Under the pieces are notes generated by a model that saw only the letters and a program-made list of their open reading frames with translations, had not been told where the DNA came from and did no database searches. A stretch of 64,000 nucleotides of DNA. It comes from a bacterium (GTDB lineage Bacteria; Pseudomonadota; Alphaproteobacteria; Rhodobacterales; Rhodobacteraceae). The position numbers and the translations under genes are program-made. Where the stretch lies: NCBI GenBank assembly GCA_016124195.1, contig WGOE01000003.1, positions 124,001 through 188,000 of the forward strand, given 5' to 3'. Shown in pieces: positions 4,310-28,158 of this stretch (position 1 is its first letter; each line of letters begins with the position of its first letter).

Positions 4310-5167
4310 ATGATCCTTGCTTTCGATATCGGCGCCCTGCGGATCAAGGCCGCGCGGGGCGGAGTGGCCTTGGGCGAGGTGCCGACCCCGCTGCACGACG
4401 CGCAGGCCTTTGTCGAGGCGCTGCACGGGTTTGTGCAGGGCGATGAGGCGGGTGTGGCCATTGCGCTGGCCGGTCATGTCGATCCGGACAGCGGGCGGGT
4501 CAGGATCGGCGCCATCCCCTGCATCAACGGTCGCGCCCTGGCACGCGAGTTGCAGGGCGCGCTTGGCCTGCCTGTGGTGGCGGTCAAGGATGCAGACTGC
4601 CTTGCGCTGGCAGAGACCGCGGTCGGGACGGCGCGCGGCCATCGCAATGTCCTTGCGCTGATCCTGGGCGAGGGCTTGGCCGGCGGGCTGGTGATCGACG
4701 GCCGGCTCGTGCAGGGCGAAGGCGGTTACGCCGGCGACTGGGGCCATGGCCCGGTGATCCGCAGCCCGCTGTTCGATTGCGCCTGCGGGTTGAAGGGCTG
4801 TCTTGAGACGGTCGCCTCGGCCCGCGGCATCGAACGCCTGCACCATCATCTGACCGGGCAAGCCATCGGCTCGGTCGAGGTGATCCGCCGCTGGCGCGCT
4901 GGCGAGCCTTCGCCCGCCGTGACGCTGTGGCTCGACCTGGTCAGCGCGCAACTGGCCATGGTGCTGAACGTGGTCGGCGCCTCGATCGTGCCGGTGGGCG
5001 GCGGGCTGGCCAATGACCGGGCGCTGATCGCCGCCCTTGACCGGGCGGTGCGCGCCCGCCTTCTGCGCAAGGCCGACCGCCCGCTTGTCGTGGTGGCCCA
5101 ATCCGGCGCGGAGGCCTTTCTGATCGGCGCCGCCATCGCCTTCGGCGGCGGTCAGACCCAGACCTGA
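4310..5167 (+). CDS. ROK-family sugar kinase
   Basis: 285-aa ROK protein of the kinase type (no N-terminal DNA-binding domain). It begins with the ATP phosphate-1 motif LAFDIGALRIKAA. It carries the ROK signature GEGGYAGDWGHGPV, whose His is a zinc ligand, and the zinc cluster CACGLKGCLE around residues 158-167. The acidic catalytic residue is probably the Asp of KDADCLAL. The start at 4310 has AAGGGAG upstream. It is the only plus-strand gene here, and its last 16 bases overlap the 3' end of the convergent ABC ATPase gene. The likely substrate is a hexose or N-acyl-hexosamine; not determinable. Confidence 0.9.
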   Translation: MILAFDIGALRIKAARGGVALGEVPTPLHDAQAFVEALHGFVQGDEAGVAIALAGHVDPDSGRVRIGAIPCINGRALARELQGALGLPVVAVKDADCLALAETAVGTARGHRNVLALILGEGLAGGLVIDGRLVQGEGGYAGDWGHGPVIRSPLFDCACGLKGCLETVASARGIERLHHHLTGQAIGSVEVIRRWRAGEPSPAVTLWLDLVSAQLAMVLNVVGASIVPVGGGLANDRALIAALDRAVRARLLRKADRPLVVVAQSGAEAFLIGAAIAFGGGQTQT

Positions 5168-5952
5168 GCCGGATCAGGCAGCGGAATGGCCTCCAGCAGG
5201 GTCCTTGTGTAGTCCGCCTCAGGGGCTGCAAAAAGCTCGGCGGTCGGGCGGTTTTCCACGATCCGTCCCTGTTGCAGCACCATCACGCGGGCACACAGCC
5301 TGCGCACCACGCTCAGGTCATGGCTGATGAAGGCGAGGGTCAGGCCCAGGTCGCGCACCAGGCCCTCCAGTAGGTTCAGGACCTGCGCCTGGGACGAGAC
5401 GTCAAGGCCCGAGACGATCTCGTCCGCAAGGATGAAGTCCGGCTCCAGTGCGATGGCGCGGGCGATGCCCACGCGCTGGCGCTGGCCCCCCGACAGCTCG
5501 TGCGGGTAGCGCGTCGCAAAGGTCTTGGGCAGGCCGACATGGTCCAGCGCGCGGTTGATCCGCGCCGGGATGCCATCGAACCCATGCAGATGCAGGGGCG
5601 CTGCAATGATCGTGCCCACGCGGTGGCGCGGGTTCAGGCTGCTCATCGGGTCCTGAAAGATCATCTGAAAGCGCCGGCGCAGCGGTCGCAGATCGGCATC
5701 GGACAGATGGGTGATGTCGGTGCCATCAAAGCTGATCCGCCCGCCCGAGGGCTGCAACAGGCGGACCAGCGCCCGGCCCAGCGTCGATTTACCCGATCCC
5801 GACCCGCCGACGATGCCGATCACCTCGCCCTTCGGTATGGCAAAGTTGAGCCCCTTGAGGATCTCCAGCCGGGGCGCCGTTCCGAACAGGGGTTTTCGGG
5901 TCATGTCGGCCAAAGACAGGCTGAGGTCGGTGACGGTGTAGAGGTCAGCCAT
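5152..5952 (-). CDS. Dipeptide/oligopeptide-type ABC transporter ATP-binding protein (DppF-like)
   Basis: 266-aa nucleotide-binding subunit of a PepT-family importer. Walker A is GGSGSGKST, the Q-loop follows in MIFQDPMSSLNPR, the signature is LSGGQRQRVGIARA, Walker B is FILADEIVSGLD and the H-loop is FISHDLS. It is shorter than typical DppF because the C-terminal oligopeptide domain is abbreviated. It is the last gene of the five-gene importer unit, with its start overlapping the stop of the other ATPase by 8 bases. It probably heterodimerises with that ATPase beneath the two permeases. Confidence 0.93.
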   Translation of the reverse strand: MADLYTVTDLSLSLADMTRKPLFGTAPRLEILKGLNFAIPKGEVIGIVGGSGSGKSTLGRALVRLLQPSGGRISFDGTDITHLSDADLRPLRRRFQMIFQDPMSSLNPRHRVGTIIAAPLHLHGFDGIPARINRALDHVGLPKTFATRYPHELSGGQRQRVGIARAIALEPDFILADEIVSGLDVSSQAQVLNLLEGLVRDLGLTLAFISHDLSVVRRLCARVMVLQQGRIVENRPTAELFAAPEADYTRTLLEAIPLPDPAQVWV

Positions 5953-6793
5953 TCTCCACCTCCGCCCGGACCGCGGCGATCACCGCCTCGGGCACCGGGT
6001 TCAGACCTGCGGTGGGATCGGTGTATTTCGGCGTCGCGGCCAGCAAGGCCGCCGAATAAGGATGCGCGGGGCCGGCAAAGAAGCGCGCGACATCGGTATC
6101 CTCGACCACCTTGCCGGAATAAAGCACCGACAGGCTTTGGCAGACCTTGCTGACGACGCCCAGATCATGCGTGACGAACAACAGCGCCGTGCCATGGCGC
6201 GCCTGCAAACCGGCGATCAGCTTCAGGATCTGCTTTTGCACCGTCACATCTAGCGCGGTCGTGGGCTCATCCGCCACGATCAGACGGGGTTCGGCCGCGA
6301 AGGCCGAGGCAATCAGGATGCGCTGCCGCATGCCGCCCGACAATTCGTGCGGATACTGGCGCAGCACGCGGTCGGGGTCGGCGATCTGCACCTCATGCAG
6401 CAGGGCCCGGGCGCGGGCTTCGGCCTCGGCGCGCTTCCAGCCCAGAATATCGACCAACCGGTCGGTGATCTGCGGCCCGATCCGGCGCGAGGGGTTGAGC
6501 GCTGTCAGCGGGTCCTGCGGGATCAGGGCGCAGGTGGCCCCGACCCTTTGCCGGCGCATGGCCGGCGGCAGGGTTAAAAGGTCCGTCCCATCCAGCACGA
6601 TCGCGCCAGAGGAAATCTCGACCGAACGCGGCAGGATGCCGAGGATCGCCTTTCCGATCATCGACTTGCCCGCACCGCTTTCACCGACCAGCCCGCGCAC
6701 CTCGCCAGCCGCCACCGTGAGCGAGACATTCCGCAGCAGGGGCCCGCCGCCCTTCAGCCGCACCGACAGATCGCGCACCTCAAGAAAGCTCAT
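5945..6793 (-). CDS. Dipeptide/oligopeptide-type ABC transporter ATP-binding protein (DppD-like)
   Basis: 282-aa ATPase subunit of the same importer. Walker A is GESGAGKSM, the Q-loop region ALIPQDPLTALNPSR is typical of the Opp/Dpp group, the signature is LSGGMRQRILIAS, Walker B is LIVADEPTTALD and the H-loop FVTHDLG. A short C-terminal tail (HPYSAALLAATPKY) is the remnant of the oligopeptide/dipeptide C-terminal region. The start at 6793 overlaps the permease stop as ATGA. The operon order SBP, permease, permease, ATPase, ATPase matches dppABCDF. Confidence 0.93.
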   Translation of the reverse strand: MSFLEVRDLSVRLKGGGPLLRNVSLTVAAGEVRGLVGESGAGKSMIGKAILGILPRSVEISSGAIVLDGTDLLTLPPAMRRQRVGATCALIPQDPLTALNPSRRIGPQITDRLVDILGWKRAEAEARARALLHEVQIADPDRVLRQYPHELSGGMRQRILIASAFAAEPRLIVADEPTTALDVTVQKQILKLIAGLQARHGTALLFVTHDLGVVSKVCQSLSVLYSGKVVEDTDVARFFAGPAHPYSAALLAATPKYTDPTAGLNPVPEAVIAAVRAEVENG

Positions 6794-7641
6794 CGCAGCA
6801 CCGGGTCGAAGCGGTCCTTCAACCCCTCGCCCAACTGGCTGAAGGACAGGACGGTGAGGAACAGCGTGATCAGAGGAAAGACCAGCACCCACCAGGCCTG
6901 ATGGATCGAGGTGCGGCCCTCGCTGATCATCCCGCCCCAGGTCGGGTCGTCGGTCGAAATCGACAGGTTCACGAAAGACAGGATCGCCTCGACGATGACG
7001 GCGATCCCCATCTCCAAAGTCAGCAGGACCACGATGATCGGCAGCACGTTGGGCAGGATCTCGCGCAGCATGGTGCTGAACCGGCCGCGCCCGGCCACCC
7101 GGGCCGAGGCCACATAGTCCATCGCCCCCTGCGCCATCGCCTCGGCCCGCACGACCCGGGCAAAGCGGGTCCAGTCGATCACCACGATGGCAAGGATGAT
7201 GGAAAACAGCCCCGGCCCGATGACCGCGATCAACAGGATGGAAAACAGGACCGGCGGAAAAGCCATCCAGATGTCGATGAAGCGCGAGATGACGATATCC
7301 ACCCAGCCCCGGTAAAACCCGGCCAAAAGCCCGAGGCTTGCCCCGATCACACAGGTCAGCGTGCCCGAAATCAACGCCACCGCCAGCGCGATGCGGGTGC
7401 CAAAGATGATCCGGCTGAGCACGTCGCGGCCCAGACTGTCGGTGCCCAGAAGGAACGCGGGATCCGCACCATGCACCCAGAAGGGCGGCAACCGGCCCGA
7501 GAAGAGATCTTGCTCCAACGGGTTCTTCGGCGCGACCCAGGGCGCCAGAACGGCGACCACCACCAAAAGCGCCAACCAGCCCAGCGACAGCCAAAGCCGT
7601 AAGCCGGCGCGGCGGCAGATCAGCGCACGTCCGTCAGCCAT
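6790..7641 (-). CDS. ABC transporter permease (DppC-like)
   Basis: 283-aa inner-membrane permease. It has one N-terminal helix (about residues 14-33), the characteristic periplasmic stretch GTDSLGRDVLSRIIFGTRI, then a five-helix BPD_transp_1 core. The EAA loop (ARVVRAEAMAQGAMDYVASAR) contacts the ATPases. Its start overlaps the end of the DppB-like gene by 8 bases and its stop overlaps the DppD-like start as ATGA, so it is tightly co-translated with both. Confidence 0.93.
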   Translation of the reverse strand: MADGRALICRRAGLRLWLSLGWLALLVVVAVLAPWVAPKNPLEQDLFSGRLPPFWVHGADPAFLLGTDSLGRDVLSRIIFGTRIALAVALISGTLTCVIGASLGLLAGFYRGWVDIVISRFIDIWMAFPPVLFSILLIAVIGPGLFSIILAIVVIDWTRFARVVRAEAMAQGAMDYVASARVAGRGRFSTMLREILPNVLPIIVVLLTLEMGIAVIVEAILSFVNLSISTDDPTWGGMISEGRTSIHQAWWVLVFPLITLFLTVLSFSQLGEGLKDRFDPVLR

Positions 7642-8644
7642 GGCGCAACCTCGGGTTCAGGGCGGCATAGGTCAGATCCACCACCAGATTGACCCCGGTG
7701 AAGATCACGGCAAACAGGATGACGATCCCCTGTATAAGCGGCAAATCCCGGTTGATCACCGCGTCGATCGCCATGTTGCCCAGGCCTTCATAGGAAAACA
7801 GCCGCTCGATGATCACCGTGCCGCCGATCAGAAAGGTGAACTGCACGCCGACCAAAGTCAGCGTCGGCAGGATCGCATTGGGCAATGCCTCGCGCCAGAT
7901 CACCCGCGCCTCGGAATAGCCCTGGGTTCGGGCCAAGGTCACGTAATCCAGATGCATCGTCTCCTTCAGGCTTTGCTTCAGCAACTGCCCGATTATTGCC
8001 GCCAGCGGAATGGCCAGCGCGAATGCCGGCAGGAACATATGCGCCAGCAGATCCCGCGTCAGGTCGAACCGCAGCCGCACCAGGCTTTCCACCAGGTAAA
8101 AGTTGGTGACAAACGGCAAATGCAGCGAAGGCGTCACCCGGCCCGAAATCTGGAACACCGGCAGCAGCACGCCGAACACCAGGATCAGCACCAGGCCCCA
8201 CAGGAAATCGGGCACCGACAGCGCCATGCCATTGGCCACGTCGATCCCGCCCTCGACCCGCGTCTCGCGCAGCCGCGTGCCGGTCAGCGCCGCGGCCCCG
8301 CCCATCAGCACCGCCATGACAAGCGCCAGCACCGAAAGCTCCAGCGTCGCCGGCAACCGCCCCAGCACCAGCGCCAGCACAGGCTGGCGCAGGGTGATCG
8401 AGGTGCCGAAGTCGCCATGCAGCACCCCGGCGCCCCAGATGACGAACTGCTGCGGGATCGACTTGTCCAATCCGTAAAGCGCGGTCAGCCGCGCGACATC
8501 CTCCGCAGTCGCCCCCGGCGGCAGCATCATCGCCACCGGATTGCCGGGCACCACGCGGATGACAAAGAACACGATCACCGCCACGCCGAACAGCGTGACC
8601 GCCGTGGTCATCAGCCGCAACAGAAGGGTCCGTACCAGGGTCAT
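7634..8644 (-). CDS. ABC transporter permease (DppB-like)
   Basis: 336-aa inner-membrane permease of the DppB group. The N-terminal helix is followed by VVPGNPVAMMLPPGA, the family's FxxxxxxPGDP-like region, and by LYGLDKSIPQQFVIW. Six predicted membrane helices follow, with the EAA loop LARTQGYSEARVIWREALPNAILP. The ATG at 8644 is preferred, with GAGAGG just upstream. An in-frame ATG at 8674 would start inside the conserved tail of the upstream intergenic repeat and add ten residues (RGARPPER...) unlike a permease N-terminus. It is separated from the solute-binding gene by a hairpin-rich gap. Confidence 0.92.
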   Translation of the reverse strand: MTLVRTLLLRLMTTAVTLFGVAVIVFFVIRVVPGNPVAMMLPPGATAEDVARLTALYGLDKSIPQQFVIWGAGVLHGDFGTSITLRQPVLALVLGRLPATLELSVLALVMAVLMGGAAALTGTRLRETRVEGGIDVANGMALSVPDFLWGLVLILVFGVLLPVFQISGRVTPSLHLPFVTNFYLVESLVRLRFDLTRDLLAHMFLPAFALAIPLAAIIGQLLKQSLKETMHLDYVTLARTQGYSEARVIWREALPNAILPTLTLVGVQFTFLIGGTVIIERLFSYEGLGNMAIDAVINRDLPLIQGIVILFAVIFTGVNLVVDLTYAALNPRLRHG

Positions 8645-8669
8645 GCGCCTCTCGGGGGGCCGCGCGCCC

Positions 8670-8796
8670 CTCATTCATCTGTTCGAAAATATCCCACAGG
8701 GGGTCTGGGGGACGTGACGTCCCCCGGCAGAGGGGTCCGGGGGGACATCACGTCCCTCCGGCGCAGGGGGCTTGGGGGGCAGCGTTGCCCCCCAAG
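8670..8796 (-). repeat. Hairpin-rich intergenic element with GGGATATTT...GAACAGATGAA tail
   Basis: Gap between the solute-binding protein gene and the first permease gene. It holds several GC palindromes: a perfect 19-bp one at 8707-8725 (GGGGGACGTGACGTCCCCC), a related imperfect copy near 8737-8757, and a nine-bp-arm stem at 8771-8796 (CTTGGGGGG/CCCCCCAAG). Read on the minus strand the block ends in GGGATATTTTCGAACAGATGAA, the tail shared with three other gaps of this window. Stems here could stabilise the upstream solute-binding-protein mRNA or attenuate the permease part. That function is inferred; the repeats are seen directly. Confidence 0.75.
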
Positions 8797-8815
8797 CCCT
8801 GGGCCCGGCGCGCGG

Positions 8816-10333
8816 TTACGCCCGCTTCATCAGATGCGGCAGCAAGGCGCCCGAATGATGCGGCGTCACCACCACACCCTTGGCCGCCAGGATCGGCTGC
8901 ACATATTGCAGCAGCGGGATGACATAGGCGTTCTCGGCGATATAGCGGTCGACATCTTTCCAGCCCTGGATGCGCTTGGCCTCGTCCTTCTCGCCCCAGA
9001 GCGGGTTGATCTTGTCGATCAGGTCCTGGCTGTCCCAGACCGAATGCGGGCTTGGCCCATACATGGCAAAGCCGGTCGAGGTCGTGGGGTCCCCCACCGA
9101 ATTGCCCCAGTTGTAGAACGCCGCCGGCGCCAGCTTGTCGGCCGCGCGCAACTCGTAATGCTTGGCGATTTCATAGACTTCGATATTGGCCTCGATGCCC
9201 ACCTTGCGCCACAGGCCGACGATGGCCTGGATCATCTCGTAGTCCTTGGGCATGTAACCCTTGGTGGTCTGGATGGTGAACTTGACCGGCTTGTCCACCG
9301 AATAGCCCGAGGCCGCGAGCAGTTTCTTGGCCAGCTCCGGGTCATGAGGAGTCTTGATCGTCGGATCATAGGCGTCGTAATCCGGCGTCTCCAGGGTGTC
9401 GATCGGCACGCCATAGCCCGACAGCAGCCGGTCGACGATGGCCTGCTTGTCGATGGCGGCAACGGCGGCCTTGCGCACATTGGGGTCCAGCATCACCTCG
9501 ATATCGTTGAGGAAGATCATCCCGATGTTCGATACCGGTGTCGCATAGCCGTTCATGCCACCCTTGAGACGGTCGAACTCCTCATAGGGCATTTCCAGCG
9601 TGACATGGGACGAGCCCGATTCCACCTCGGCCACCCGGGCTGCGGCATCGGTCACGAATTTGATGGTGACGGTGTCGAAATCCGGCTTGCCGCCCCAGTA
9701 ATTGGCATTGGCCTTCAGCCGCACGAAGGCGTTCTGTTCGAACTTGTCGACCATGTACGGGCCGGTGCCGATCGGCGCCTTCTCGAACCCGGCAGCGCCC
9801 ACCTTGGTGTAATAGGCCTTGGGCAGGACGTAGCCCGTCAGGAAATACATCCATTTGAAGATGGTCGGGTCGAACTGCTTGACATCGGCCGTGACCTTGT
9901 TGCCCTCGGCCTTGAAATTGGTCAGCGTGCCCCAGACGAACTGGATCGGGTTGCCGGTGTCGGGATTGGCCGCGCGTTCCAGGCTCCACGCCACATCCTC
10001 GGCGGTGAAGGGGCTGCCGTCGTGCCAGGTCACCCCATCGCGCACCGTCATGTGGACCTGGGTCTTGTCGTCATTCCAGCCCCACTCGGTCAAGAGGCCG
10101 GGGGCGGGCTTCAGGTCGGGCTGTTGCAGGATGTATTGGTCGAAGACCGACTGGTAGAGGCCCTGGATCGTCGGGTTCACCGCCGAAGGTCCCACGGTCG
10201 GGTCCCAGGACGGCAGGGTGACGTTATAGGCGATCACCAATTCGTCGATGGCCTGGGCGAAACTTGGAAGCGCGACCGAGGTCGCCACCGCCGCCGCCGA
10301 CAGCTTCAATAGGCTGCGTCTGTTGAGGTTCAT
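8816..10333 (-). CDS. ABC transporter substrate-binding protein, family 5 (DppA-like), Tat signal
   Basis: 505-aa periplasmic solute-binding protein for a peptide/nickel-class (SBP_bac_5) importer. The N-terminus NLNRRSLLKLSAAAVATSVA is a twin-arginine signal, with cleavage likely after FAQA. Typical lobes follow, including VTWHDGSPFTAEDVAWSLER and APIGTGPYMVDKFEQN. The start at 10333 has AGGGA eight bases upstream; an ATG at 10354 gives seven extra residues before the signal. It lies just behind a FAD oxidoreductase gene and ahead of the permeases. The ligand is unknown. The neighbours suggest it is a catabolic substrate rather than a nutrient peptide. Confidence 0.93.
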   Translation of the reverse strand: MNLNRRSLLKLSAAAVATSVALPSFAQAIDELVIAYNVTLPSWDPTVGPSAVNPTIQGLYQSVFDQYILQQPDLKPAPGLLTEWGWNDDKTQVHMTVRDGVTWHDGSPFTAEDVAWSLERAANPDTGNPIQFVWGTLTNFKAEGNKVTADVKQFDPTIFKWMYFLTGYVLPKAYYTKVGAAGFEKAPIGTGPYMVDKFEQNAFVRLKANANYWGGKPDFDTVTIKFVTDAAARVAEVESGSSHVTLEMPYEEFDRLKGGMNGYATPVSNIGMIFLNDIEVMLDPNVRKAAVAAIDKQAIVDRLLSGYGVPIDTLETPDYDAYDPTIKTPHDPELAKKLLAASGYSVDKPVKFTIQTTKGYMPKDYEMIQAIVGLWRKVGIEANIEVYEIAKHYELRAADKLAPAAFYNWGNSVGDPTTSTGFAMYGPSPHSVWDSQDLIDKINPLWGEKDEAKRIQGWKDVDRYIAENAYVIPLLQYVQPILAAKGVVVTPHHSGALLPHLMKRA

Positions 10334-10361
10334 GATTTTGGTCCCTGTTGTCATTTTTCTG

Positions 10362-11936
10362 TCAGTTTCCAGCCAGTTGCCGGGCCAGCAGATATCCCGG
10401 CCCCGCCCCTGTCCCCGCGCCGGGCCAGACAGCGGCGCCGGTCAGGTGCAGGTTGCGGATCGGGGTAGAGCCGTCCGCATGGCCGCGCATGGGACGGAAA
10501 AGGAAATGTTGCGCCAGATGATGCGAGCCGCAGACCTGATCGCCGCCGACGAGGTTGGGGTTCTCGTGCTCCAGTTCGGCCGGAGAGACGATGCGGCGAC
10601 CAAGGATGCGCGACCTGATGCCCGGCGCATGGGCGTCGAGGATGTCAAGCGCGCGCTCGGCAAAGGGTTCGGCAGCCTCGTGCCAGTCGGTCGCGGCAAT
10701 CTCGCCCTTGGCATCGCCGCGGATCGTGCCAGGCGCCATGCGCACCTGCAGCCAGAGGGCATGCTTGCCCTCCGGCGCGCGCGAGGGGTCAAAGACGGTC
10801 GGCTGCCCCACCACGAGGATCGGCTCCTCCGGCAAGAGCCCCGCCTTGGCCTGGGCATAGGTCCGCGCCATCTGGTCGAGGCTGGGGGCGATATGGACGT
10901 AGGCGAAGGATTTCAGCGCCTTGGCCCGCCAGTCGGGCAGGTCCGACAGCGCCAGATGGATCATCATCGTGCCCGGCGCATGGGCAAAGCGGGTCATGCC
11001 GGCATCAAAGCCGGGCGTCGTGCCGCCGGTCAGCCGCGGCAGCGCGCCGGGGGCCACACCCGCGATCACCGCCTTGTTGGCCACGATCCTGCGGCCGTCC
11101 TGCAGTTCTATCCCGCGGGCCGTGCCGGTGTCATGCAGGATGCGGGCGACCGGGGCGCTGGTTTCGACCACCCCGCCACGCGCCCTGATGGCGGCGACAA
11201 GCGCCTTGACGATGGTATCCGCGCCCCCTTTGCCGATCACCATGCCGAAGGCCTGCCCCGCCATGCCCTCAAGGTAGGGAAACATCGCCCCGCCGGCGAC
11301 ATCGGGGGCGAAATCCAGATGCATGCCCCAAGCCCCCAGCATGGCCTGCACACCGGGATGGCGGAAGGTTTCGGTCAGCCAACCACGCGGCGATTGCAGC
11401 AAAAACCGGGTGAAATCCAGCGTGCCGGCAATTCCCTTCGCCCGCAGTGTTTTGAACATGAAATATGCGAGCGCACGAAATTTCATCGGGCTGCCCAAGA
11501 GGCCGAAGAGATGCGGCGCCTCGGCGCCAAAGCCGCCGACCAGCGCCCGCCAGGTCGCGGCATCTTCGGGCGACAGGGCTTCGATCATGGCCAAAGTCTC
11601 GGCCATGTCGGTCGAGACGCCGACGTGGCTGCCGTCGGCAAACGACGAGGCGAAGGGGCGGGAGACCGGCACGAAGGCGCAGCCGTGCCGGGTCAGTTCC
11701 TGACCATAAACCTTGAAAAACGGGCTTCCGGCGAACAAGGACAGGTTCATCGCGGCCCAGTCGTGGCGGAAGCCGGGCAGCGTATATTCCCCGGTCTTGA
11801 CCGCGCCGCCCGCTGAGGGGGCCGCCTCGAACACCCCCACCTTCCAGCCGCGCGCTGCCAGATGCAGGGCGGCGGCCAGCGTGTTGTGGCCCGCCCCGAT
11901 CAGCACGGCGTCAAAGGCGCGATCAACCTCGGGCAA
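10362..11936 (-). CDS. CrtI-like NAD(P)/FAD-dependent oxidoreductase (copy 1)
   Basis: 524-aa flavoprotein of the phytoene-desaturase/PYROXD2-like group. The dinucleotide-binding motif is VLIGAGHNTLAAALHLAARG near the N-terminus, followed by FEAAPSAGGAVKT. The C-terminal FAD motif is NLHLTGAAVWPGAGTGAGPG. The only reasonable start is TTG at 11936, with GGGGGA upstream. It is paralogous to the protein at 12910-14460: both share GEIAATDW and NLVGGD blocks. It is first in the minus-strand importer operon, so its substrate may be what the importer brings in. No carotenoid genes are nearby, so a role in pigment synthesis is unlikely. Confidence 0.88.
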   Translation of the reverse strand: MPEVDRAFDAVLIGAGHNTLAAALHLAARGWKVGVFEAAPSAGGAVKTGEYTLPGFRHDWAAMNLSLFAGSPFFKVYGQELTRHGCAFVPVSRPFASSFADGSHVGVSTDMAETLAMIEALSPEDAATWRALVGGFGAEAPHLFGLLGSPMKFRALAYFMFKTLRAKGIAGTLDFTRFLLQSPRGWLTETFRHPGVQAMLGAWGMHLDFAPDVAGGAMFPYLEGMAGQAFGMVIGKGGADTIVKALVAAIRARGGVVETSAPVARILHDTGTARGIELQDGRRIVANKAVIAGVAPGALPRLTGGTTPGFDAGMTRFAHAPGTMMIHLALSDLPDWRAKALKSFAYVHIAPSLDQMARTYAQAKAGLLPEEPILVVGQPTVFDPSRAPEGKHALWLQVRMAPGTIRGDAKGEIAATDWHEAAEPFAERALDILDAHAPGIRSRILGRRIVSPAELEHENPNLVGGDQVCGSHHLAQHFLFRPMRGHADGSTPIRNLHLTGAAVWPGAGTGAGPGYLLARQLAGN

Positions 11937-12033
11937 GCGATTGTCCCCCGTTCATACCCGAAGGATATTTGCAAACGCATTTAAATCTGTCTAGCATGAT
12001 TCTCGTTGGCAAAGGTAAAGACGGCAGATGGGC
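11937..12033. promoter_or_regulatory. Divergent promoter region of the importer and cyclase operons
   Basis: AT-richer stretch in an otherwise GC-rich window, between two operons that start in opposite directions. The segment around 11965-11998 (ATTTGCAAACGCATTTAAAT and CTAGCATGAT) is where promoters and a MarR operator would be expected. I see no clean long palindrome, so the exact boxes are not assigned. Confidence 0.35.
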
Positions 12034-12908: not shown

Positions 12909-12909
12909 G

Positions 12910-20521: not shown

Positions 20522-20546
20522 GGCTGCACTATCCTCCACCCGATCA

Positions 20547-20581
20547 AAATTTCAAGTTGGAAAGTTTTAAGCTTGAAATTT
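20547..20581. promoter_or_regulatory. Inverted-repeat operator, AAATTTCAAG-N15-CTTGAAATTT
   Basis: Perfect 10-bp arms at 20547-20556 and 20572-20581 in the 119-base gap between two divergent catabolic operons. The sequence is strikingly AT-rich against its surroundings. This is the size and placement of an operator for a dimeric winged-helix repressor. The MarR encoded at 23651-24085, inside the rightward operon, is the obvious candidate. The repeat is observed; the regulator assignment is inferred. Confidence 0.65.
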
Positions 20582-20640: not shown

Positions 20641-22923
20641 ATGAAGGTCCTGTGCCTTGGCGGCGGCCCCGCCGGTCTGTATTTCGCCATTTCGATGAAG
20701 CTGCGCGACCCGGCGCATCAGGTCACCGTGCTGGAACGCAACCGCGCCAACGACACCTTCGGCTGGGGCGTCGTGCTGTCGGATGACGCGCTGAGCCGGA
20801 TGCAGAAGAACGACCCGGTCTCGACCGAGGCGATCCGCAGCAATTTCGCCTATTGGGACGACATCGCCGTCGTGCACAATGGCCACCGAACCGTCTCGGG
20901 CGGGCATGGCTTTGCCGGGATCGGGCGCAAGACCATGCTGATCCTGTTGCAGGCCCGGGCCCGCGAACTGGGCGTCGATCTGCGCTTTGAGACCGAGTTC
21001 AAGACTGCCGAGGAATACCGGCGCGACTATGATCTGGTGGTGGCAACCGACGGGATCAACTCGGTCGTGCGGCGTGAATATGCTGAAGTCTTCCAGCCCG
21101 ACATCGACATTCGCAAATGCAAGTTCGTCTGGCTGGGCACCCATGCCAAGTTCGACGACGCCTTCACCTTCATCTTCGAGAAGACCGAACATGGCTGGGT
21201 CTGGGCCCATGTCTATCAGTTTGACAAGGACACCGCGACCTTCATCGTGGAATGCCTGCCCGAAACCTGGGACCGCTGGGGCTTTGCCGCCATGTCCAAG
21301 GAAGAGACCATTGCCGTTTGTGAACGTATATTCGCCAAATACCTGAACGGCCATTCGCTTATGTCGAACGCGGCGCATCTGCGCGGCTCGGCGGTGTGGA
21401 TGCAATTCCCCCGGGTGATCTGCAACACCTGGTATCACGAGAATGTCGTGCTGATGGGCGATGCGGCGGCGACCGGACATTTCTCGATCGGGTCGGGGTC
21501 TCGGCTGGCCTTTGACAGCGCGATTGCCCTGGCCGAATACCTGCATTCGGAGCCCACGATGCAGGGCGCCTTCCAGCGCTATCAGGACGAACGCCGGGTC
21601 GAGGTCTTGCGGCTGCAATCGGCGGCGCGCAACTCGCTGGAATGGTTCGAAGAGGTGGAACGCTACCTCGACATGCCGCCTTTGCAGTTCGCCTATTCGC
21701 TTCTGACCCGCAGCCAACGGATTTCGCACGAGAATTTGCGCCAGCGCGACCCGGCCTGGCTGCGCCACGCAGAGGATTGGTTTCAGGAACAGGCGGGCGG
21801 GGAACCGGGCCGGCTGCCGATGTTCGCCCCCTTCCGCCTGCGCGACATGGCCTTGCAGAACCGCATCGTCGTCTCGCCCATGGCGCAATACAAGGCGGTG
21901 GATGGCGTGCCGGGTGACTGGCATTTCATCCATCTGGCCGAGCGCGCCAAGGGCGGTGCAGGGCTGGTCTATACCGAGATGACCTGCGTGTCGGCCCAGG
22001 GCCGCATCACGCCCGGCTGTCCCGGGCTTTATTCGGCCAAACACGAGGCAGGCTGGAAGCGGGTGGTCGATTTCATCCATGCCGAGACCAACGCCAAGAT
22101 CTGTTGCCAGATCGGCCATTCCGGCCGCAAGGGCTCGACCCAGGTGGGCTGGCAGGACAGTGACATGCCGCTGCCAGAGGGCAACTGGCCGGTGTTGAGC
22201 GCCTCTGCCATCCCGTGGTCGCCCGCCCATCAGGTGCCCAAGGAGATGGACCGCGCCGACATGGACAAGGTCCTGATGCAGTTCGTCAAGGCGACCGAGA
22301 TGGCCAAGCGGGCGGGCTTTGACATGATCGAACTGCATGCGGCGCATGGCTATCTGATCTCGTCCTTCATCAGTCCGGTGTCGAATGTGCGGACCGATGC
22401 CTATGGCGGCAGCCTGGAAAACCGGATGCGCTATCCCTTGGAGGTTTTCGCCGCGATGCGCGCGGAATGGCCGGGGTCAAAGCCGATGTCGGTGCGGATT
22501 TCGGCCAACGACTGGGTCGGACCGGAGGGCGTCACCCCTGCCGAAGCCGTTGAGATTGCGGCGATGTTCGCGGCCGCAGGTGCGGATATCATCGACGTGT
22601 CGGCCGGGCAGACCACGCCCGATGCGCGGCCGATCTATGGCCGGATGTTCCAGACTCCGTTCAGCGACCGTATCCGGAATGAGGCGGGGCTCGCCACGAT
22701 GGCGGTGGGCAACATCACCGAGGCCGAGCAGGTCAACCAGATCCTCCTCGCCGGGCGGGCCGACCTTGTGTGCCTGGCGCGGCCGCATCTGGCCGACCCC
22801 TACTGGACCCTGCACCAGGCCGTGAAGGCCGGCGATCCGACAGCCTGGCCCCTGCCCTATCTGGCCGGGCGCGATCAGGCGATCCGGCTGTTGGGCAAGG
22901 CAACGGAGGTTCTGCGGGCATGA
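20641..22923 (+). CDS. Bifunctional 2-aminobenzoyl-CoA monooxygenase/reductase-type flavoprotein
   Basis: 760-aa fusion. Residues about 1-385 form a salicylate-hydroxylase-like FAD monooxygenase with [32 protein letters not shown] and [19 protein letters not shown]. Residues about 395-760 form an Old Yellow Enzyme/NADH:flavin oxidoreductase with [36 protein letters not shown] and [14 protein letters not shown]. This domain pair is that of anthraniloyl-CoA monooxygenase/reductase and of proteins annotated salicylyl-CoA 5-hydroxylase. The enzyme hydroxylates and then reduces the ring of the CoA thioester. The CoA ligase, RidA-like and beta-oxidation genes in the operon favour 2-aminobenzoyl-CoA as the substrate. 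Confidence 0.9.
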
Positions 22924-23654
22924 AGGGCAAACGGGTTCTGGTCACCGGCGGCGGGTCGGGCGCGGGGGCGGATCTGGCGCTTGGCTTTGCCGAGGCAGGC
23001 GCCGAGGTGGTGATCTGCGGGCGCAGGCTTGAAGCCCTGACCGCGGTTGCTGGCCGTCACCCCTCGATTCGGGCGCTGCATTGTGACGTGACGAACGAAG
23101 ATTCGGTAATGGGCCTTTACGCGGCGGCCGGCCCGGTGGACATCGTGATCGCCAATGCCGGGCAGGCGGATTCGGCGCCGTTCCACAAGACCTCGCTCGA
23201 CAACTGGAACAGAATGCTGGCGGTCAATCTGACCGGGGTTTTCCTGACCTTCCGCGAGGGGCTGCGGCAGATGAACGGATGGGGCCGGCTGGTGGCGGTG
23301 GCCTCGACCGCGGGGCTCAAGGGCTATGCCAAGGTCGCGCCCTATGCGGCGGCCAAGCACGGGGTCCTGGGCATCGTGCGGTCCCTGGCACTGGAGGTGG
23401 CGCGGCGGCCGATCACGGTGAACGCGATCTGCCCGGGGTTTCTGGACACCGAGATGACCGCGCATTCGATCAAGGTGATCAGCGAAAAGACCGGACGCTC
23501 GCCCGCCGAGGCCCGGGCGGTGCTGGAGGGGCTGAACCCGCAGGGGCGGCTGTTTCAGCCCTCTGAAGTGACCGCGGCGGCGCTTTATCTCTGCGGCGCG
23601 GGGGCCGAGGGCGTGAACGGCCAAAGCCTGACCATCGCAGGCGGAGAGCTATGA
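22920..23654 (+). CDS. Short-chain dehydrogenase/reductase
   Basis: 244-aa classical SDR. The cofactor motif is [20 protein letters not shown], with IANAG in beta-4. The catalytic Ser is in [10 protein letters not shown] and the Y-x3-K pair in [11 protein letters not shown]. It starts inside the stop of the monooxygenase/reductase gene and ends inside the start of the MarR gene. It probably oxidises or reduces a hydroxy/keto CoA intermediate of the ring-degradation path; the exact step is unknown. Confidence 0.93.
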
Positions 23655-24085
23655 GCGACCCTTTGTCCAAGCGGCGGCTCAAGATGTGGATCCGGCTTCT
23701 GGGTGTGACCCGCGCGGCCGAGGCCGAACTGCGCGAGTTCCTGCGGGTACGCCATGAGACCACCCTGCCGCGCTTTGACGTGATGGCCGCCCTGTACCGC
23801 CGGCGCGAGGCAGTTTCGATGTCAGACCTGTCGCGCATGCTGTTGGTGTCGAACGGCAATGCCACCACCGTGGTCGACCGGCTGGAGGCCGATGGTCTGG
23901 TGCGGCGCACGCCTTCGGAGACCGACCGGCGCACGGTCTATGTCGCCCTGACGCCGGAAGGGCTGAGCCAGTTCGAAGGTCTTGCCGCACAGCACGAGGC
24001 CGAGGTCAGCCGGGTATTCGGCGGCCTTTCGGAAGGCGATCTGGACCAGTTGACCGACATTCTCAAACGCATGGGGACCAAATGA
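23651..24085 (+). CDS. MarR-family transcriptional regulator
   Basis: 144-aa MarR protein. The DNA-binding region runs through [20 protein letters not shown] and [20 protein letters not shown], followed by [10 protein letters not shown]. It is coupled on both sides by ATGA overlaps, so it is made together with the enzymes. Autoregulation through the inverted repeat at 20547-20581 is likely. CoA thioesters are common inducers for regulators embedded in aryl-CoA operons (family knowledge). Confidence 0.93.
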
Positions 24086-24891
24086 AACTGAGCGGACGCA
24101 TGCCGGAACACTTCCTGTGGCAGGTCGCGGATCGGGTGGGAACGGTGCGGTTGAACCAGCCCGACCGCAAGAACCCGCTGACCTTCGACAGCTATGCCGA
24201 GTTGCGCGACCTGTTCCGCGATCTGGTCTATGCCGAGGATGTCGACGTGGTGATCTTTGCCTCGACCGAGGGGAATTTCTGTTCGGGCGGCGATGTGCAT
24301 GACATCATCGGGCCGCTGATCGGGCTGCCGATGAAGGACCTTTTGGCCTTTACCCGGATGACCGGCGATCTGGTCAAGGCGATGTTGGGCTGTGGCAAGC
24401 CGATCATCGCGGCGGTCGAAGGTGTGGCGGTGGGGGCGGGGGCGATCATCGCGATGGCCTCGGACCTGCGGTTGGCGACGCCGGAGGCGAAATGCGCCTT
24501 CCTGTTCACCCGGGTCGGACTGGCGGGCTGCGACATGGGCGCCTGTGCCATGCTGCCGCGGATCATAGGCCAGGGGCGGGCGGCGGAGTTGCTTTACACC
24601 GGGCGGGTGATGACTGCTGCCGAGGGCGAGCGTTGGGGGTTCTGGAATGCCCTGCATCCCTCCGCGACGCTGCTGGCCGAGGCGCAGGCCTTGGCGAGCC
24701 GGCTCGCCTCGGGGCCGACCTTTGCGCATGGCATGACGAAGACACAGTTGAACCACGAGTGGAACATGGGGCTGGACCAGGCGATCGAGGCCGAGGCGCA
24801 GGCCCAGGCGATCTGCATGCAGACCAAGGACTTCGAGCGGGCTTACCGGGCCTTCGTGGCAAAGGAGCGGCCCGTGTTTGCCGGGGACTGA
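24082..24891 (+). CDS. Crotonase-fold protein with atypical active-site loop
   Basis: 269-aa enoyl-CoA hydratase/isomerase superfamily protein. The oxyanion-hole parts are [11 protein letters not shown] and [20 protein letters not shown]. Where ordinary hydratases carry the Glu of PExxLGxxPGxGG, this one reads [20 protein letters not shown]. The second catalytic Glu is therefore not in its usual place and an Asp sits nearby. This suggests a different chemistry, for example C-C hydrolysis or ring opening, rather than plain hydration. Hairpin repeats follow immediately after the stop. Confidence 0.88.
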
Positions 24892-24951: not shown

Positions 24952-24952
24952 G

Positions 24953-24999
24953 CGGGGGCGCTGCCCCCGAAACCCCCGGGAATATTTGGGAACAGATGA
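24953..24999 (+). repeat. GC hairpin plus GGGAATATTTGGGAACAGATGAA tail
   Basis: The hairpin CGGGGGCGCTGCCCCCG (24953-24969) is followed by AACCCCCGGGAATATTTGGG and AACAGATGAAG. In this copy the ATG of the tail is also the start codon of the acyl-CoA dehydrogenase gene, so the element may supply its initiation region. Confidence 0.75.
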
Positions 25000-26135
25000 A
25001 GATGGATCGGACTTTTCTGGAGTGGCCTTTCCTTGAACCTCGGCATCGTGCGTTGGCAGACGCGCTTGAGGCGTGGTGCCTGGCGCATCTGCCGGTGGAT
25101 CATGGCGATGTGGACGCGGCCTGTCGCGGGCTGGTGGCGATATTGGGGGCCGGGGGCTGGCTGCAGCATTCGGGCGGAAGTCTGGATGTCCGCACGCTGT
25201 GTCTGATCCGCGAGACCTTGGCGCGCCATGACGGGCTTGCGGATTTTGCCTTTGCGATGCAGGGGCTTGGGATGGGTGCGGTATCGCTGTTCGGTACGGA
25301 TGAGCAGCGCGCCTGGCTGGAGAAGACCCGGGCCGGATCGGCGATTGCGGCTTTTGCGCTGACCGAGCCGGGGTCAGGGTCCGATGTGGCCGCGACCTCG
25401 ACCATGGCCGAGCGGGTGCAGGGCGGATGGCGGATCTCGGGGGAGAAGACCTGGATTTCGAACGGCGGGATCGCGGATGTCTATGTGGTGTTCGCGCGGA
25501 CCGGCGAGGCGCCGGGGGCGCGGGGCCTTTCGGCGTTTCTGATGCCCGCGGACACGAAAGGGCTGGAGGTGGTCGAGCGGCTGGAGGTGATTGCGCCGCA
25601 TCCTTTGGCGCATTTGCGGCTGGACGGGGTCGAACTGCCGGAGGCGGCCTTGATCGGCAAGGCTGGCGAGGGGTTCAAGCTGGCGATGGCGGTGCTGGAC
25701 GTATTCCGTTCGACCGTGGGGGCGGCCGCCTTGGGCTTTGCGCGGCGGGCTTTGGACGAAAGTCTGGCCAGGGTATCGGCGCGGCGCATTCAGGGGCAGC
25801 CCCTGGCCGAGTTGCAGATGGTGCAGGGCCATCTTGCGGATATGGCGCTTGAGGTCGATACGGCTGCCCTGCTGGTCTATCGGGCGGCCTGGACGAAGGA
25901 TATGGGCGCCGCGCGGGTGACGCGCGAGGCTGCGATGGCGAAACTGCATGCGACCGAGGCGGCTCAGCGGGTGATCGACATGGCGGTGCAGTTGCATGGC
26001 GGCGACGGCGTCCGGCACGGGTCGGTCGTCGAGCGGCTTTACCGGGAGATCCGCGCCTTGCGCATTTATGAGGGGGCAAGCGATGTTCAGCGCGTGGTGA
26101 TCGCGCGGGCGATTTTGCCAAAGGAGGGGAAATGA
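24996..26135 (+). CDS. Acyl-CoA dehydrogenase
   Basis: 379-aa FAD acyl-CoA dehydrogenase. Middle-domain motifs are [20 protein letters not shown] and [20 protein letters not shown]. The C-terminal domain ends with [20 protein letters not shown], whose Glu in YEG is the usual catalytic base. The start is ATG 24996, or ATG 25002 two codons later; both lie in the end of the repeat tail with no conventional Shine-Dalgarno. The next gene overlaps by ATGA. It fits an oxidation step on a ring-derived or ring-opened CoA ester. Confidence 0.93.
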
Positions 26136-26536
26136 CATCTCCACATGAATTTCTGCACCCGGCGCATTGGAAGAAGGCGGTGGGCTATTCCAACGGCGTT
26201 TCGGCACGCGGGCGGCTGGTGGTGACTGGCGGCATCATCGGGTGGAACGCCGATCAGCAGTTCGAGACGGATGATTTCGCAGGCCAGGCCGCGCAGGCCC
26301 TGCGCTCGATCGTCGAGGTTCTGGCCTGCGGCAGAGCGCGACCCGAACATCTGGTGCGGCTGACCTGGTATGTCACGGACAAGCGGGAATATCTCGCCAG
26401 CCTGAAGGACCTGGGGCAGGCCTACCGGCAGGTGATTGGCAAGCACTTCCCGGCGATGGCTCTGGTCCAGGTGGTGGCGCTGGTCGAGGACCGGGCCAAG
26501 GTGGAAATCGAGGCGACGGCGGTGGTGCCGGAATGA
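26132..26536 (+). CDS. RidA-family (YjgF/UK114) protein lacking the canonical arginine
   Basis: 134-aa RidA-fold protein: [20 protein letters not shown], then [13 protein letters not shown], then [11 protein letters not shown]. Archetypal RidA has an Arg in the FPxRS loop that binds the imine carboxylate. Here the loop reads [11 protein letters not shown], with Met at that place, while the Glu of VEIEA is kept. It is therefore probably not a 2-aminoacrylate deaminase of the standard type. In this operon it may hydrolyse an imine or enamine derived from the amino group of the aminobenzoyl-CoA product (inference). Confidence 0.88.
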
Positions 26537-26547
26537 GGGGGGCAAGC

Positions 26548-28158
26548 ATGTTGGGACCGACAGGCCATGTGGACAGCTTCACGCGCGACAGGTTGCCCGC
26601 ACCGCAGGACTGGCCCGAGATCAAGGCGACATTCCATTACCCGGAGTGGCTGAATGCCGGGGTCGAATTGTGCGACCGGATGGTCGAGCGCGGCTTTGGC
26701 GACAATGTGGCCCTGATCGGCAATGGGCGGCAGCGCACCTACAAGGAACTGACCGACTGGTCGAACCGCATCGCCCATGCCCTTGTCGAGGTCTATGGCG
26801 TGAAGCCGGGCAACCGCGTGCTGATCCGGTCGGCCAACAATCCCGCGATGGTGGCCTGCTGGCTGGCGGCCACCAAGGCGGGGGCGGTCGTGGTCAATAC
26901 GATGCCGATGCTGCGGTCGGGTGAATTGACCGCCATCGTCGACAAGGCCGAAATCAGCCACGCCCTGTGCGACACGCGCCTGATGGAGGAACTGGTCACC
27001 TGCGCCAAGGGATCGCGACATCTGAAAACCGTGATCGGCTTTGACGGCACCGCCAACCATGATGCGGAACTGGACCGGATTGCCCTGTCCAAGCCAGTGC
27101 GCTTTGCGGCAGTCAGGACCGGGCGCGACGACGTGGCCCTGCTGGGCTTTACCAGCGGCACGACGGGCGAGCCCAAGGCCACCATGCATTTCCACCGCGA
27201 CCTTCTGATCATAGCCGATGGCTATGCGGCCGAAGTGTTGAAGGTCACGCCGGAAGATATCTTCGTGGGCTCTCCACCCCTGGCCTTCACCTTCGGCCTG
27301 GGCGGGCTTGCGATCTTTCCCCTGCGGTTTGGCGCCGCGGCCGCCCTTCTGGAACAGGCAAGCCCGGCCAACATGATCTCGCTGATCCAGGAACACAGGG
27401 CGACAGTCTGCTTCACGGCGCCAACCGCCTACCGCGCGATGCTGAAGGCGATGCAGGAGGGTGCCGACCTGTCGAGCCTGCGTGCCGCGGTCAGCGCCGG
27501 CGAGACCCTGCCCGCGCCAGTCTATCAGGAATGGATGGAGCGCACCGGCAAGCCGATGCTGGATGGCATCGGCGCGACCGAGATGCTGCATATCTTCATC
27601 ACCAACCGCTTCGAGGATCACAGGCCTGGCTGTACCGGGCGTCCTGTCGGCGGCTATGAGGCGCGGATCGTGGCCGAGGACATGAGCGAACTGCCGCGCG
27701 GCGAGGTGGGGCGGCTGGCGGTGCGCGGCCCGACCGGCTGCCGCTACATGGCCGATGACCGGCAGAAGAACTATGTGCGCAACGGCTGGAACCTGACTGG
27801 CGACAGTTTCTGGCAGGATGAAGAGGGCCGCTTTCATTTTGCCGCGCGGTCCGATGACATGATCGTCTCGGCCGGGTACAACATCGCCGGCCCGGAGGTC
27901 GAGGCGGCCTTGCTGTCCCATCCCGCCGTGCTGGAATGCGCCGTGGTGGGCGCGCCCGATGAAGAGCGCGGCCATGTCGTCGAGGCGCATGTGGTATTGG
28001 CCGCCGGGCATTCGGGTGACGCGCTGATGGTCAAGCTGCTGCAAGACCATGTCAAGGCGGTGATCGCGCCCTACAAATACCCGCGCCGGATCGTCTTTGC
28101 CACCGGCCTGCCCAAGACACAGACCGGCAAGATCCAGCGCTTTCGCCTCAAGACCTGA
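26548..28158 (+). CDS. Benzoate-CoA ligase family AMP-forming enzyme, probable 2-aminobenzoate-CoA ligase
   Basis: 536-aa adenylate-forming acyl-CoA synthetase. The P-loop is LLGFTSGTTGEPKATMHFHR, A5 is GIGATEMLHIF, A8 is GRFHFAARSDDMIVSAGYNI and the catalytic Lys is in LPKTQTGKIQR. The overall sequence is of the benzoate-CoA ligase group. The start at 26548 follows AGGGGGG by five bases; an ATG at 26533 overlapping the RidA stop is the alternative. It makes the CoA thioester at the start of the pathway. Specificity for anthranilate rests on the monooxygenase/reductase in the operon. Confidence 0.9.
   Translation: MLGPTGHVDSFTRDRLPAPQDWPEIKATFHYPEWLNAGVELCDRMVERGFGDNVALIGNGRQRTYKELTDWSNRIAHALVEVYGVKPGNRVLIRSANNPAMVACWLAATKAGAVVVNTMPMLRSGELTAIVDKAEISHALCDTRLMEELVTCAKGSRHLKTVIGFDGTANHDAELDRIALSKPVRFAAVRTGRDDVALLGFTSGTTGEPKATMHFHRDLLIIADGYAAEVLKVTPEDIFVGSPPLAFTFGLGGLAIFPLRFGAAAALLEQASPANMISLIQEHRATVCFTAPTAYRAMLKAMQEGADLSSLRAAVSAGETLPAPVYQEWMERTGKPMLDGIGATEMLHIFITNRFEDHRPGCTGRPVGGYEARIVAEDMSELPRGEVGRLAVRGPTGCRYMADDRQKNYVRNGWNLTGDSFWQDEEGRFHFAARSDDMIVSAGYNIAGPEVEAALLSHPAVLECAVVGAPDEERGHVVEAHVVLAAGHSGDALMVKLLQDHVKAVIAPYKYPRRIVFATGLPKTQTGKIQRFRLKT

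Follow-up and report, generated by a model that had tools for sequence, protein, structure and literature searches.

The stretch of DNA analyzed here, referred to throughout as the window, comprises 64,000 nucleotides of a Rhodobacteraceae genome of 4.26 Mb in 18 contigs (GenBank assembly GCA_016124195.1, contig WGOE01000003.1, positions 124,001 to 188,000) and contains, at 5152-28158, a contiguous catabolic block of two arms. Profile searches of the open reading frames of the window placed in this block every gene that a preliminary description had named there, namely those for a Dpp-type importer, two CrtI-like FAD enzymes, a PF04199 hydrolase, IorAB, two MarR regulators, a beta-oxidation-like set, a monooxygenase/OYE reductase fusion (ACMR), and a CoA ligase, along with two genes absent from that list, which encode an SDR dehydrogenase (22920-23654) and a RidA-family enamine/imine deaminase (26132-26536). 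As judged from its sequence, the block probably encodes a catabolic pathway with isatin as its node, extending from import through 2-aminobenzoyl-CoA degradation.

The left arm is divided by a divergent gap of 180 bases between fad1 and cyc. Its minus-strand half holds dppF (5152..5952) and dppD (5945..6793), which encode importer ATPases, the former of the oligopeptide/DppF type (Pfam ABC_tran; DppF/OppF-like), and the permease genes dppC (6790..7641) and dppB (7634..8674), dppD, dppC, and dppB having been assigned by profile searches and all four being conserved in left-arm loci; next to these lie sbp (8816..10354), which encodes a solute-binding protein of the SBP_bac_5 family (Pfam, 250 bits), and fad1 (10362..11936), which encodes a CrtI/CrtO-like FAD oxidoreductase (NCBIfam/Pfam) 38% identical to that of fad2. 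The plus-strand half holds cyc (12117..12908), the gene for a predicted isatin hydrolase of the isatin hydrolase B (IHB) type; fad2 (12910..14460), for a second CrtI-like FAD oxidoreductase; marA (14457..14918, with its ATG at 14457), for the MarR regulator of this arm (Pfam MarR); and iorA (14937..17084) and iorB (17081..18610), for the alpha subunit of a 2-oxoacid oxidoreductase and its POR + DUF6537 fusion partner. The right arm carries on its minus strand the genes for a PaaH-like 3-hydroxyacyl-CoA dehydrogenase (18666..19775) and a PaaF-like enoyl-CoA hydratase (19772..20539), both assigned by profile searches, as were those for the SDR, MarB, acyl-CoA dehydrogenase, and RidA proteins. 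Its plus strand holds the ACMR gene (20641..22923), the SDR gene, marB (23651..24085, the MarR regulator of this arm), a second enoyl-CoA hydratase family gene (24082..24891; PRK08258, 469.5 bits against a cut-off of 330), the genes for acyl-CoA dehydrogenase (24996..26135) and RidA, and the aryl-CoA ligase gene (26533..28158). Eleven of the 19 neighboring gene pairs overlap, by 1-8 bp, and four more are spaced by 1-55 bp. Since the left cassette recurs with identical content in other genomes, the arrangement is not due to chance.

The family assignments of cyc and ACMR are supported by sequence and conserved context. The cyc protein matches PF04199 with 107.5 bits (cut-off 23.1), and its best match among solved structures is IHB from Labrenzia aggregata (4J0N/4M8D; 478 bits over the full length), followed by a Ralstonia enzyme and isatin hydrolase A at 273-281 bits; 202 of the 262 residues aligned with the IHB chain are identical (77%). 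Isatin hydrolases are characterized by the metal motif HxG[T/A]HxDxPxH, a GLAS or GLQC motif, a WxW/FxW motif, and an aromatic pocket (PMC6117287), and cyc carries HSGTHFDAPHH at residue 73 (the HxGTHxDxPxH form), WAW at 63 (WxW motif), W84, F209, and GLAS at 222. Given this degree of identity and the presence of the signature residues, the enzyme should convert isatin to isatinate. Of the two PF04199 activities entertained in the preliminary description, that of isatin hydrolase is thus retained, whereas that of kynurenine formamidase is ruled out by the ranking of solved structures and by the KynB motif I(L/I)E, for which no match was found anywhere in the cyc protein. Isatinate, or 2-aminophenylglyoxylate, is an aryl 2-oxo acid. 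Within the order, cyc is 65-88% identical to a first group of cyclases, which holds those of left-arm loci, and 45-50% identical to a second group, which sits in loci resembling the auxin-degrading iad loci wherever loci were inspected. Five genomes carry an additional cyc relative (67-71% identity) as part of an open frame that measures 688-706 codons and may encode a fusion protein (G042:C1:3654902, G171:C72:50794, G155:C4:29215, G098:C104:52745, and G187:C1:155796). In addition, a plasmid of Roseibium aggregatum, the source species of the structurally known isatin hydrolases, carries a cyclase 49% identical to cyc in an iad-type operon with Rieske, AMP-binding, thiolase, and SDR genes (L227).

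The step preceding isatin is suggested by loci that encode an indole (styrene-type) monooxygenase, 26 of which were read (16 + 10), with nine of the 54 plasmid records carrying such a monooxygenase contributing loci. The oxygenase IifA occurs without fad2 or cyc in ten of them (L193, L194, L196, L197, L205, L207, L209, L210, L211, and L213), and a fad2 route occurs without IifA in 11, either with fad2 inside the locus (L100, L102, L121, L127, L168, L208, and L212), with a left arm beside it on the contig (L200, L201, and L202), or with iorAB beside the monooxygenase gene and fad2 on another contig (L203); none of the 26 combines IifA with the fad2 route. The remaining loci (L195, L198, L199, L204, and L206) themselves hold neither gene, the genomes of L204 and L206 carrying fad2 elsewhere. 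The count of fad2 routes is biased upward, as L100, L102, L121, L127, and L168 had been found via fad2 searches; with these five set aside, the split is ten IifA loci to six fad2 loci, still with none holding both. The chance of so perfect a split, uncorrected for kinship, is 2.8e-6 for all 21 loci and 1.2e-4 for the 16. Both kinds occur even within one family (f43), in which G507 has fad2 and G647 and G480 have IifA. IifA/DhoA is a cofactor-independent oxygenase, and IifB and IifA together convert indole dihydrodiol to anthranilate (PMC12538310). In an operon of Azospirillum thermophilum, SDR, indole/styrene monooxygenase, flavin reductase, and transporter genes are followed by fad2 and cyc at the end, and in Alloyangia pacifica the same front lies beside ACMR, cyc, fad2, iorAB, fad1, and the importer. 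The substrate of IifA is dioxindole, and its mutual exclusion with fad2 suggests that fad2 and isatin hydrolase together replace it, fad2 oxidizing dioxindole to isatin. The modeled fad2 protein (pLDDT 84, pTM 0.86) has a CrtI/flavin amine oxidase fold closest to gamma-carotene and phytoene desaturases, an uncharacterized oxidoreductase, and nicotine oxidoreductases, a fold that does not name the substrate and is compatible with N-heterocycle oxidation. A cluster of Providencia rettgeri includes GS-O, an oxidoreductase gene of about 1.6 kb left without a function by its authors (PMC9871250), which from its position and size would be a fad2 relative.

The two arms would be joined by IorAB. The preliminary description had taken this enzyme for an indolepyruvate oxidoreductase, which it probably is not, as it does not reach the cut-offs of the indolepyruvate ferredoxin oxidoreductase models (265 against 651 bits for TIGR03336 and 41 against 206 for TIGR03334). 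The TPP-binding domain PF02775 and the POR domain PF01558 do exceed their cut-offs, IorB matches the POR + DUF6537 fusion model PRK08312 with 669 bits (cut-off 348), and IorA bears C-terminal cysteine motifs (CVGCGNC at residue 654) that are predicted to be of the iron-sulfur type. From this domain content and from linkage, we infer that IorAB is a CoA-acylating isatinate:acceptor oxidoreductase; oxidative decarboxylation of isatinate with CoA would supply the substrate of ACMR without a ligase. In a phylum sample of 398 genomes, the ten with an indole monooxygenase were checked for fad2, iorB, and ACMR: the four with fad2 (G478, G481, G507, and G573) all have iorB and ACMR, and among the six without it iorB occurs in one (G647) and ACMR in two (G647 and G480), the best iorB match of G647 having a Rieske gene and a 47% cyclase for neighbors, an arrangement like that of iad loci (L218). 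Outside the class of the window, iorA, iorB, and ACMR are consecutive on one strand in G507 (L214) and G573 (L215), and the 19.9 kb read around them contain no match to the ligase of the window; a further ACMR copy of G507, at another site, is accompanied by a ligase of its own (L220). Within the order, G089 (L222) shows the succession iorA, iorB, thioesterase, ACMR, and further right-arm genes, likewise with no ligase match in the stretch read. A 4HBT thioesterase also lies between iorB and ACMR in G573. A tree built from 63 IorB proteins intermixes loci whose cyclases have 45-49% identity (the iad kind) with those that have the window-type cyclase; such mixing would be expected if IorAB acted on one and the same compound in both.

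Other members of this family are found in different surroundings. On a plasmid of Variovorax boronicumulans, a 43% IorB relative accompanies genes for an alpha-hydroxy acid oxidase and an enolase-like protein (L104), which suggests that other family members act on aryl glyoxylates. An FAH gene follows iorAB-ACMR in both L214 and L215; among the selected reading frames searched after ACMR in L215 are also those for a cupin, a C-N hydrolase, an Amdase-family protein, and a MarR regulator, and iorAB of Ruegeria pomeroyi (L103) is flanked by similar genes. These genes suggest that the lower pathway of L214 and L215 differs, perhaps proceeding by ring cleavage of 5-hydroxyanthranilate to maleamate, maleate, and fumarate.

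Conservation of the arms was surveyed in an order sample of 292 genomes, with cut-offs of E 1e-40 for cyc, at least 300 bits for iorB, and E 1e-150 for ACMR; for fad2, 24 of the 28 matches at E 1e-30 reached at least 570 bits and were counted, the weaker ones in G083, G094, G108, and G254 being left out, as were six genomes with weaker or partial iorB matches from the iorB tally. By these measures, cyc is present in 43 genomes, iorB in 45, fad2 in 24, and ACMR in 119. All 24 fad2 genomes have cyc, iorB, and ACMR as well as a second, fad1-like match; iorB accompanies cyc in 42 of 43 genomes (the lone other, G224, carries part of an iorB gene together with a 40% relative), ACMR does so in all 43, and 44 of the 45 iorB genomes have ACMR. 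Fisher tests on these genomes, which are not independent, give 5e-46 for cyc with iorB and 7e-20 for cyc with ACMR; at the level of genus (113 genera), to which the correction for kinship was confined, all 29 cyc genera fall within the 32 iorB genera (6.5e-24), and all have ACMR (1.3e-9). In the opposite direction, ACMR occurs without cyc in 76 of its 119 genomes and without fad2 in 95. These counts indicate that the isatin module practically requires ACMR, whereas ACMR often does without the module. Independence of the two arms in most genomes, which according to the preliminary description would have spoken against their connection, is therefore not seen for the left arm; it is seen only in the converse sense, for ACMR. 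ACMR lies within 20 kb of iorB in 13 of 44 genomes, as compared with 38 of 42 for cyc and iorB. A coupling of the arms, in which the left would yield a 2-aminobenzoyl compound for the right, is accordingly a reading that sequence and conserved context support.

Gene order in the left arm, compared between the window and stretches from the 23 other fad2 genomes, is similarly stable: cyc adjoins fad2 in 22 of the 24, the exceptions (G166 and G105) having cyc and iorAB together at another place on that contig, and in 20 the gene after marA is iorA. The set cyc-marA-iorA-iorB also occurs without fad genes (L079, L082, L083, L085, and L086). In two further loci, L080 and L081 (G155 and G171), the full cyc-marA-iorAB set stands beside fad2 fragments, accompanied in L081 by fragments of fad1 and the importer; the front module seems to have been lost first. 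Beyond the order, named genomes were scanned with an alignment of fad2, and the best 80 of 566 relatives were retained, mostly from Mesorhizobium, Rhizobium, or Neorhizobium; within about 10 kb of fad2 these 80 loci contain cyc in 67 cases, iorA in 66, iorB in 66, marA in 68, and fad1 in 61. An ACMR match of at least 40% over at least 100 residues is present in 38 of the 80, the matched part being as short as 119 residues (L116), and a weak match in L151 (32% over 260 residues) brings the total to 39. The most distant example is a Tsukamurella plasmid (Actinomycetota, L226), in which ACMR, a cyclase, iorA, iorB, and two annotated FAD oxidoreductases share 13 kb; identity to the window is 40% for the first FAD protein (to fad2), 60% for iorA, 45% for the cyclase, and 49% for ACMR, and the second FAD protein matches neither fad1 nor fad2 at E 1e-10. 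An iorB match was obtained in 51 plasmid records, at least 40 of which match the cyclase as well, judged from the 60 cyclase matches listed out of 130.

Taken by itself, the right arm resembles the usual type of 2-aminobenzoyl-CoA cluster known from Azoarcus. ACMR is a full-length monooxygenase + OYE fusion (PRK08255, 1270.7 bits against a cut-off of 1078, a model whose name refers to salicylyl-CoA), and the ligase, a member of the benzoate-CoA ligase family that scores 355 bits with TIGR02262, just under the cut-off of 375, is probably an anthranilate-CoA ligase, as among solved structures it matches anthranilate-CoA ligase best (287 bits, with benzoate-CoA ligase at 258). With respect to regulation, the fad1/cyc gap contains an element strongly conserved in 11 aligned loci, TTTGCAAANGCATWTAAATCTGTCTAGCAT (11968..11997, plus strand), which is a probable MarR operator/promoter and has a single match in the window and none in 100 shuffles. 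Palindrome searches found, 5' of the ACMR gene, a probable right-arm operator (20547..20581) and, 5' of the acyl-CoA dehydrogenase gene, two similar palindromes (24892-24912 and 24932-24952). A shared operator for both arms was considered and rejected, as the arms differ in their palindromes and the element of the left arm has no second copy in the window; given this difference, each arm probably has its own MarR operator.

Entry into the pathway was approached through the importer and fad1. The importer has the architecture of DppABCDF, with all the curated equivalog models shown, DppF included, below their cut-offs, and fad1 misses the curated CrtI and CrtO cut-offs (123 against 238 and 186 against 1000 bits). 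Among the 80 fad2 loci, an sbp relative of at least 60% identity is found in 58, all of which have fad1, and fad1 lacks such a relative only in L113 and L162 (a 4.4 kb contig). In eight loci (L116, L118, L120, L122, L128, L130, L140, and L161) cyc, fad2, and iorAB occur without fad1, five of them with a more distant Dpp-type importer (34-47%). These tallies imply that fad1 travels with the importer and fad2 with the isatin module. In the source genome, no match to the indole monooxygenase IifC was found at E 1e-40, and indole was on this ground rejected as a direct substrate; an auxin pathway was likewise judged unlikely there for want of a close relative of the Rieske protein IadD, the best of the five Rieske-type hits showing 34% identity across 206 residues or 38% across 105, as compared with 81% identity between the IadD-like reference proteins. 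Given both absences, the input probably arrives via the importer and fad1, or via an unrecognized gene. A tryptophan dioxygenase is encoded elsewhere in the genome, so that kynurenine could supply free anthranilate as a second input.

Assembled from these parts, the proposed sequence would begin with the import of an indole-derived compound by DppBCDF and Sbp and its oxidation by fad1. Dioxindole (3-hydroxyindolin-2-one) would then be oxidized to isatin by fad2, isatin would be opened to isatinate by cyc, and IorAB would convert isatinate and CoA to 2-aminobenzoyl-CoA, CO2, and a reduced acceptor by oxidative decarboxylation. ACMR would dearomatize the CoA ester, after which the SDR, RidA, hydratases, and dehydrogenases would carry out beta-oxidation-like steps; the CoA ligase would allow free anthranilate, for example from kynurenine, to enter the same lower pathway. 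The preliminary description had anticipated a 2-aminobenzoyl compound passed from left arm to right, and this part stands; the compound at the junction is probably 2-aminobenzoyl-CoA rather than the free anthranilate proposed there, even though the ligase is kept. That isatin is a shared node of auxin and indole catabolism, at which fad2 and isatin hydrolase replace IifA and the DUF6537-fusion IorAB makes 2-aminobenzoyl-CoA without ATP or free anthranilate, is regarded as reasonably likely.

Two alternatives concern the junction. If IorAB were a genuine indolepyruvate:acceptor oxidoreductase, with a 2-oxo acid derived from tryptophan as its substrate, the left arm would include a separate tryptophan branch; its annotated names and its TPP and POR domains would fit, but this is doubtful in view of the missed cut-offs, of the presence of iorB in 42 of the 43 genomes that have isatin hydrolase, and of the position of iorAB just before ACMR in L214, L215, and L222, indoleacetyl-CoA being presumably unsuited to ACMR. 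A somewhat greater, though still low, probability is given to the formation of free anthranilate from isatinate, either by CO2 loss and an aldehyde dehydrogenase or by IorAB followed by a thioesterase, with the ligase then making the CoA ester and IorAB being auxiliary. Several observations point this way and weigh against the favored junction. The window retains its CoA ligase; 4HBT thioesterases adjoin iorB in L215 and L222, as does a thioesterase-family gene in Ruegeria pomeroyi, such enzymes being ones that could hydrolyze the CoA ester; and in Variovorax, a deletion strain with only iadC-K2 shows C7H7NO and has anthranilate formation restored (PMC12633357). Neither iadA nor iadB is mentioned by name in the available text of that paper, and the gene numbering implies that the strain lacks both (PMC9613470). 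With anthranilate still formed, IorAB would not be strictly needed in Variovorax, unless isatinate decays or other enzymes act. In favor of the proposed junction, this strain also accumulates C8H7NO3 (the isatinate formula) strongly (PMC12633357). Nevertheless, a dispensable iorB would hardly be kept with isatin hydrolase as constantly as it is, and the ligase is missing from the stretches read around iorAB-ACMR in the three loci named above.

The identity of the upper pathway is the subject of two further alternatives. A left arm of the iad kind, degrading the auxin indole-3-acetate, would account for the PF04199 hydrolase, IorAB, and MarR genes common to both, and iorA and iorB are exclusive markers of iad as opposed to iac loci in the Variovorax work (PMC9613470); it is nonetheless improbable, for the cassette has no Rieske gene, the block has no thiolase, the Rieske-type hits of the genome are remote, and cyc belongs with the left-arm cyclases (65-88%) rather than the iad-associated group (45-50%). 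Scarcely more probable is that the fad/importer module degrades an unrelated N-heterocycle and merely neighbors the isatin genes. In its favor, and to the detriment of an isatin pathway, fad1/fad2 pairs occur without cyc in the locus, with an importer in Mesorhizobium loti NZP2037 (L099/L105), L109, and L169 and without one in L113, and fad2 occurs without other cassette genes in L106, L107, L108, L112, and L145; the genes sampled around fad2 in L106, L109, and L169 gave no informative context. On the plasmid pML2037 of M. loti NZP2037, the fad1-like, fad2-like, and importer genes are accompanied by those for two molybdenum hydroxylases, a cupin, Ldh, RidA, FAH, an FAD monooxygenase, and an amidohydrolase, with no cyclase or iorAB annotated in the stretches read, a set that is possibly another N-heterocycle pathway. 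This pairing with other ring-cleavage genes implies that the importer-fad1 module may serve more than one N-heterocycle. The presence of cyc and iorB in every fad2 genome of the order argues the other way, as does that of fad2 in indole-monooxygenase operons without fad1 or importer (L100, L121, L127, L168, L208, and L212). Also unfavorable to an isatin pathway spanning both arms are the differing palindromes, the IorAB relative in a probably different context beside an alpha-hydroxy acid oxidase (L104), the presence of iorB without cyc in G089, G184, and G289 (G184 also lacking ACMR), and the search bias and limited kinship correction given with the counts above.

The preliminary description knew of no described pathway with this full set of genes; related combinations are partly described, in the iad auxin loci and in the Providencia indole cluster. 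The iad loci of Variovorax, Achromobacter, and Bradyrhizobium share MarR control and iorA/iorB with the left arm, include IadI, annotated as a kynurenine formamidase, and are reported to proceed via isatin and isatinic acid to anthranilate, with no reaction assigned to IadA/IadB in the available text (PMC9613470, PMC12633357); where they have the Rieske proteins IadDE and a thiolase, the block has two CrtI-like FAD enzymes and a Dpp importer. Indole is also converted to anthranilate by the products of the iif/ipo-dho clusters of Acinetobacter, Burkholderia, and P. savastanoi and of the Providencia GS cluster. The Providencia set (by gene number, SDR, monooxygenase, flavin reductase, cyclase, unassigned oxidoreductase, and MetA; PMC9871250) has the gene order of L208/L212, in which the fifth gene is a fad2 relative, whereas canonical iif uses IifA, for which fad2, isatin hydrolase, and IorAB would stand in here, in a genome where no indole monooxygenase was found. 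The aerobic 2-aminobenzoyl-CoA pathway of Azoarcus evansii comprises a ligase, a monooxygenase/reductase, and beta-oxidation-type steps, as does the right arm (review PMC4539516), to which the block adds an isatin module that could bypass the ligase. On the quinaldine plasmid of Arthrobacter sp. Rue61a, an N-heterocycle upper pathway is likewise joined to a CoA-dependent anthranilate pathway, but by other ring chemistry and with free anthranilate and a ligase between, isatin hydrolase and IorAB not being mentioned in the available text (PMC3534580). For the Labrenzia (Roseibium) aggregata isatin hydrolases A and B, to whose IHB chain cyc is so close, the available text mentions neither operon nor gene cluster (PMC6117287). 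No description was found in the open-licence papers searched of an isatin-hydrolase/IorAB joint, of fad2 and isatin hydrolase in place of IifA, or of the ligase bypass.

Isatin has been called a dead end or an artefact of indole breakdown, and its role is posed as a question in a review (PMC6221969). If IorAB is indeed an isatinate oxidoreductase, both the role of isatin and that of IadA/IadB would be explained. The reading as a whole would give a function to enzymes left unassigned in plant-hormone and indole breakdown, IadA/IadB and the Providencia GS-O among them, and would extend to roseobacters, rhizobia, and other Pseudomonadota as well as to one actinobacterium or more. It would also mean that marine roseobacters and rhizobia, the latter in a setting where indole and auxin signals are important, can turn an N-heterocycle into an aryl-CoA with no need of an ATP-dependent ligase.

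The genes that border the block are unrelated to it: to its left stands one of the ROK family, and to its right are those of a two-component system. Beside the latter, at 30973-34242 of the window, lie genes for a PepSY/flavodoxin protein and ApbE, which are unrelated to the pathway.

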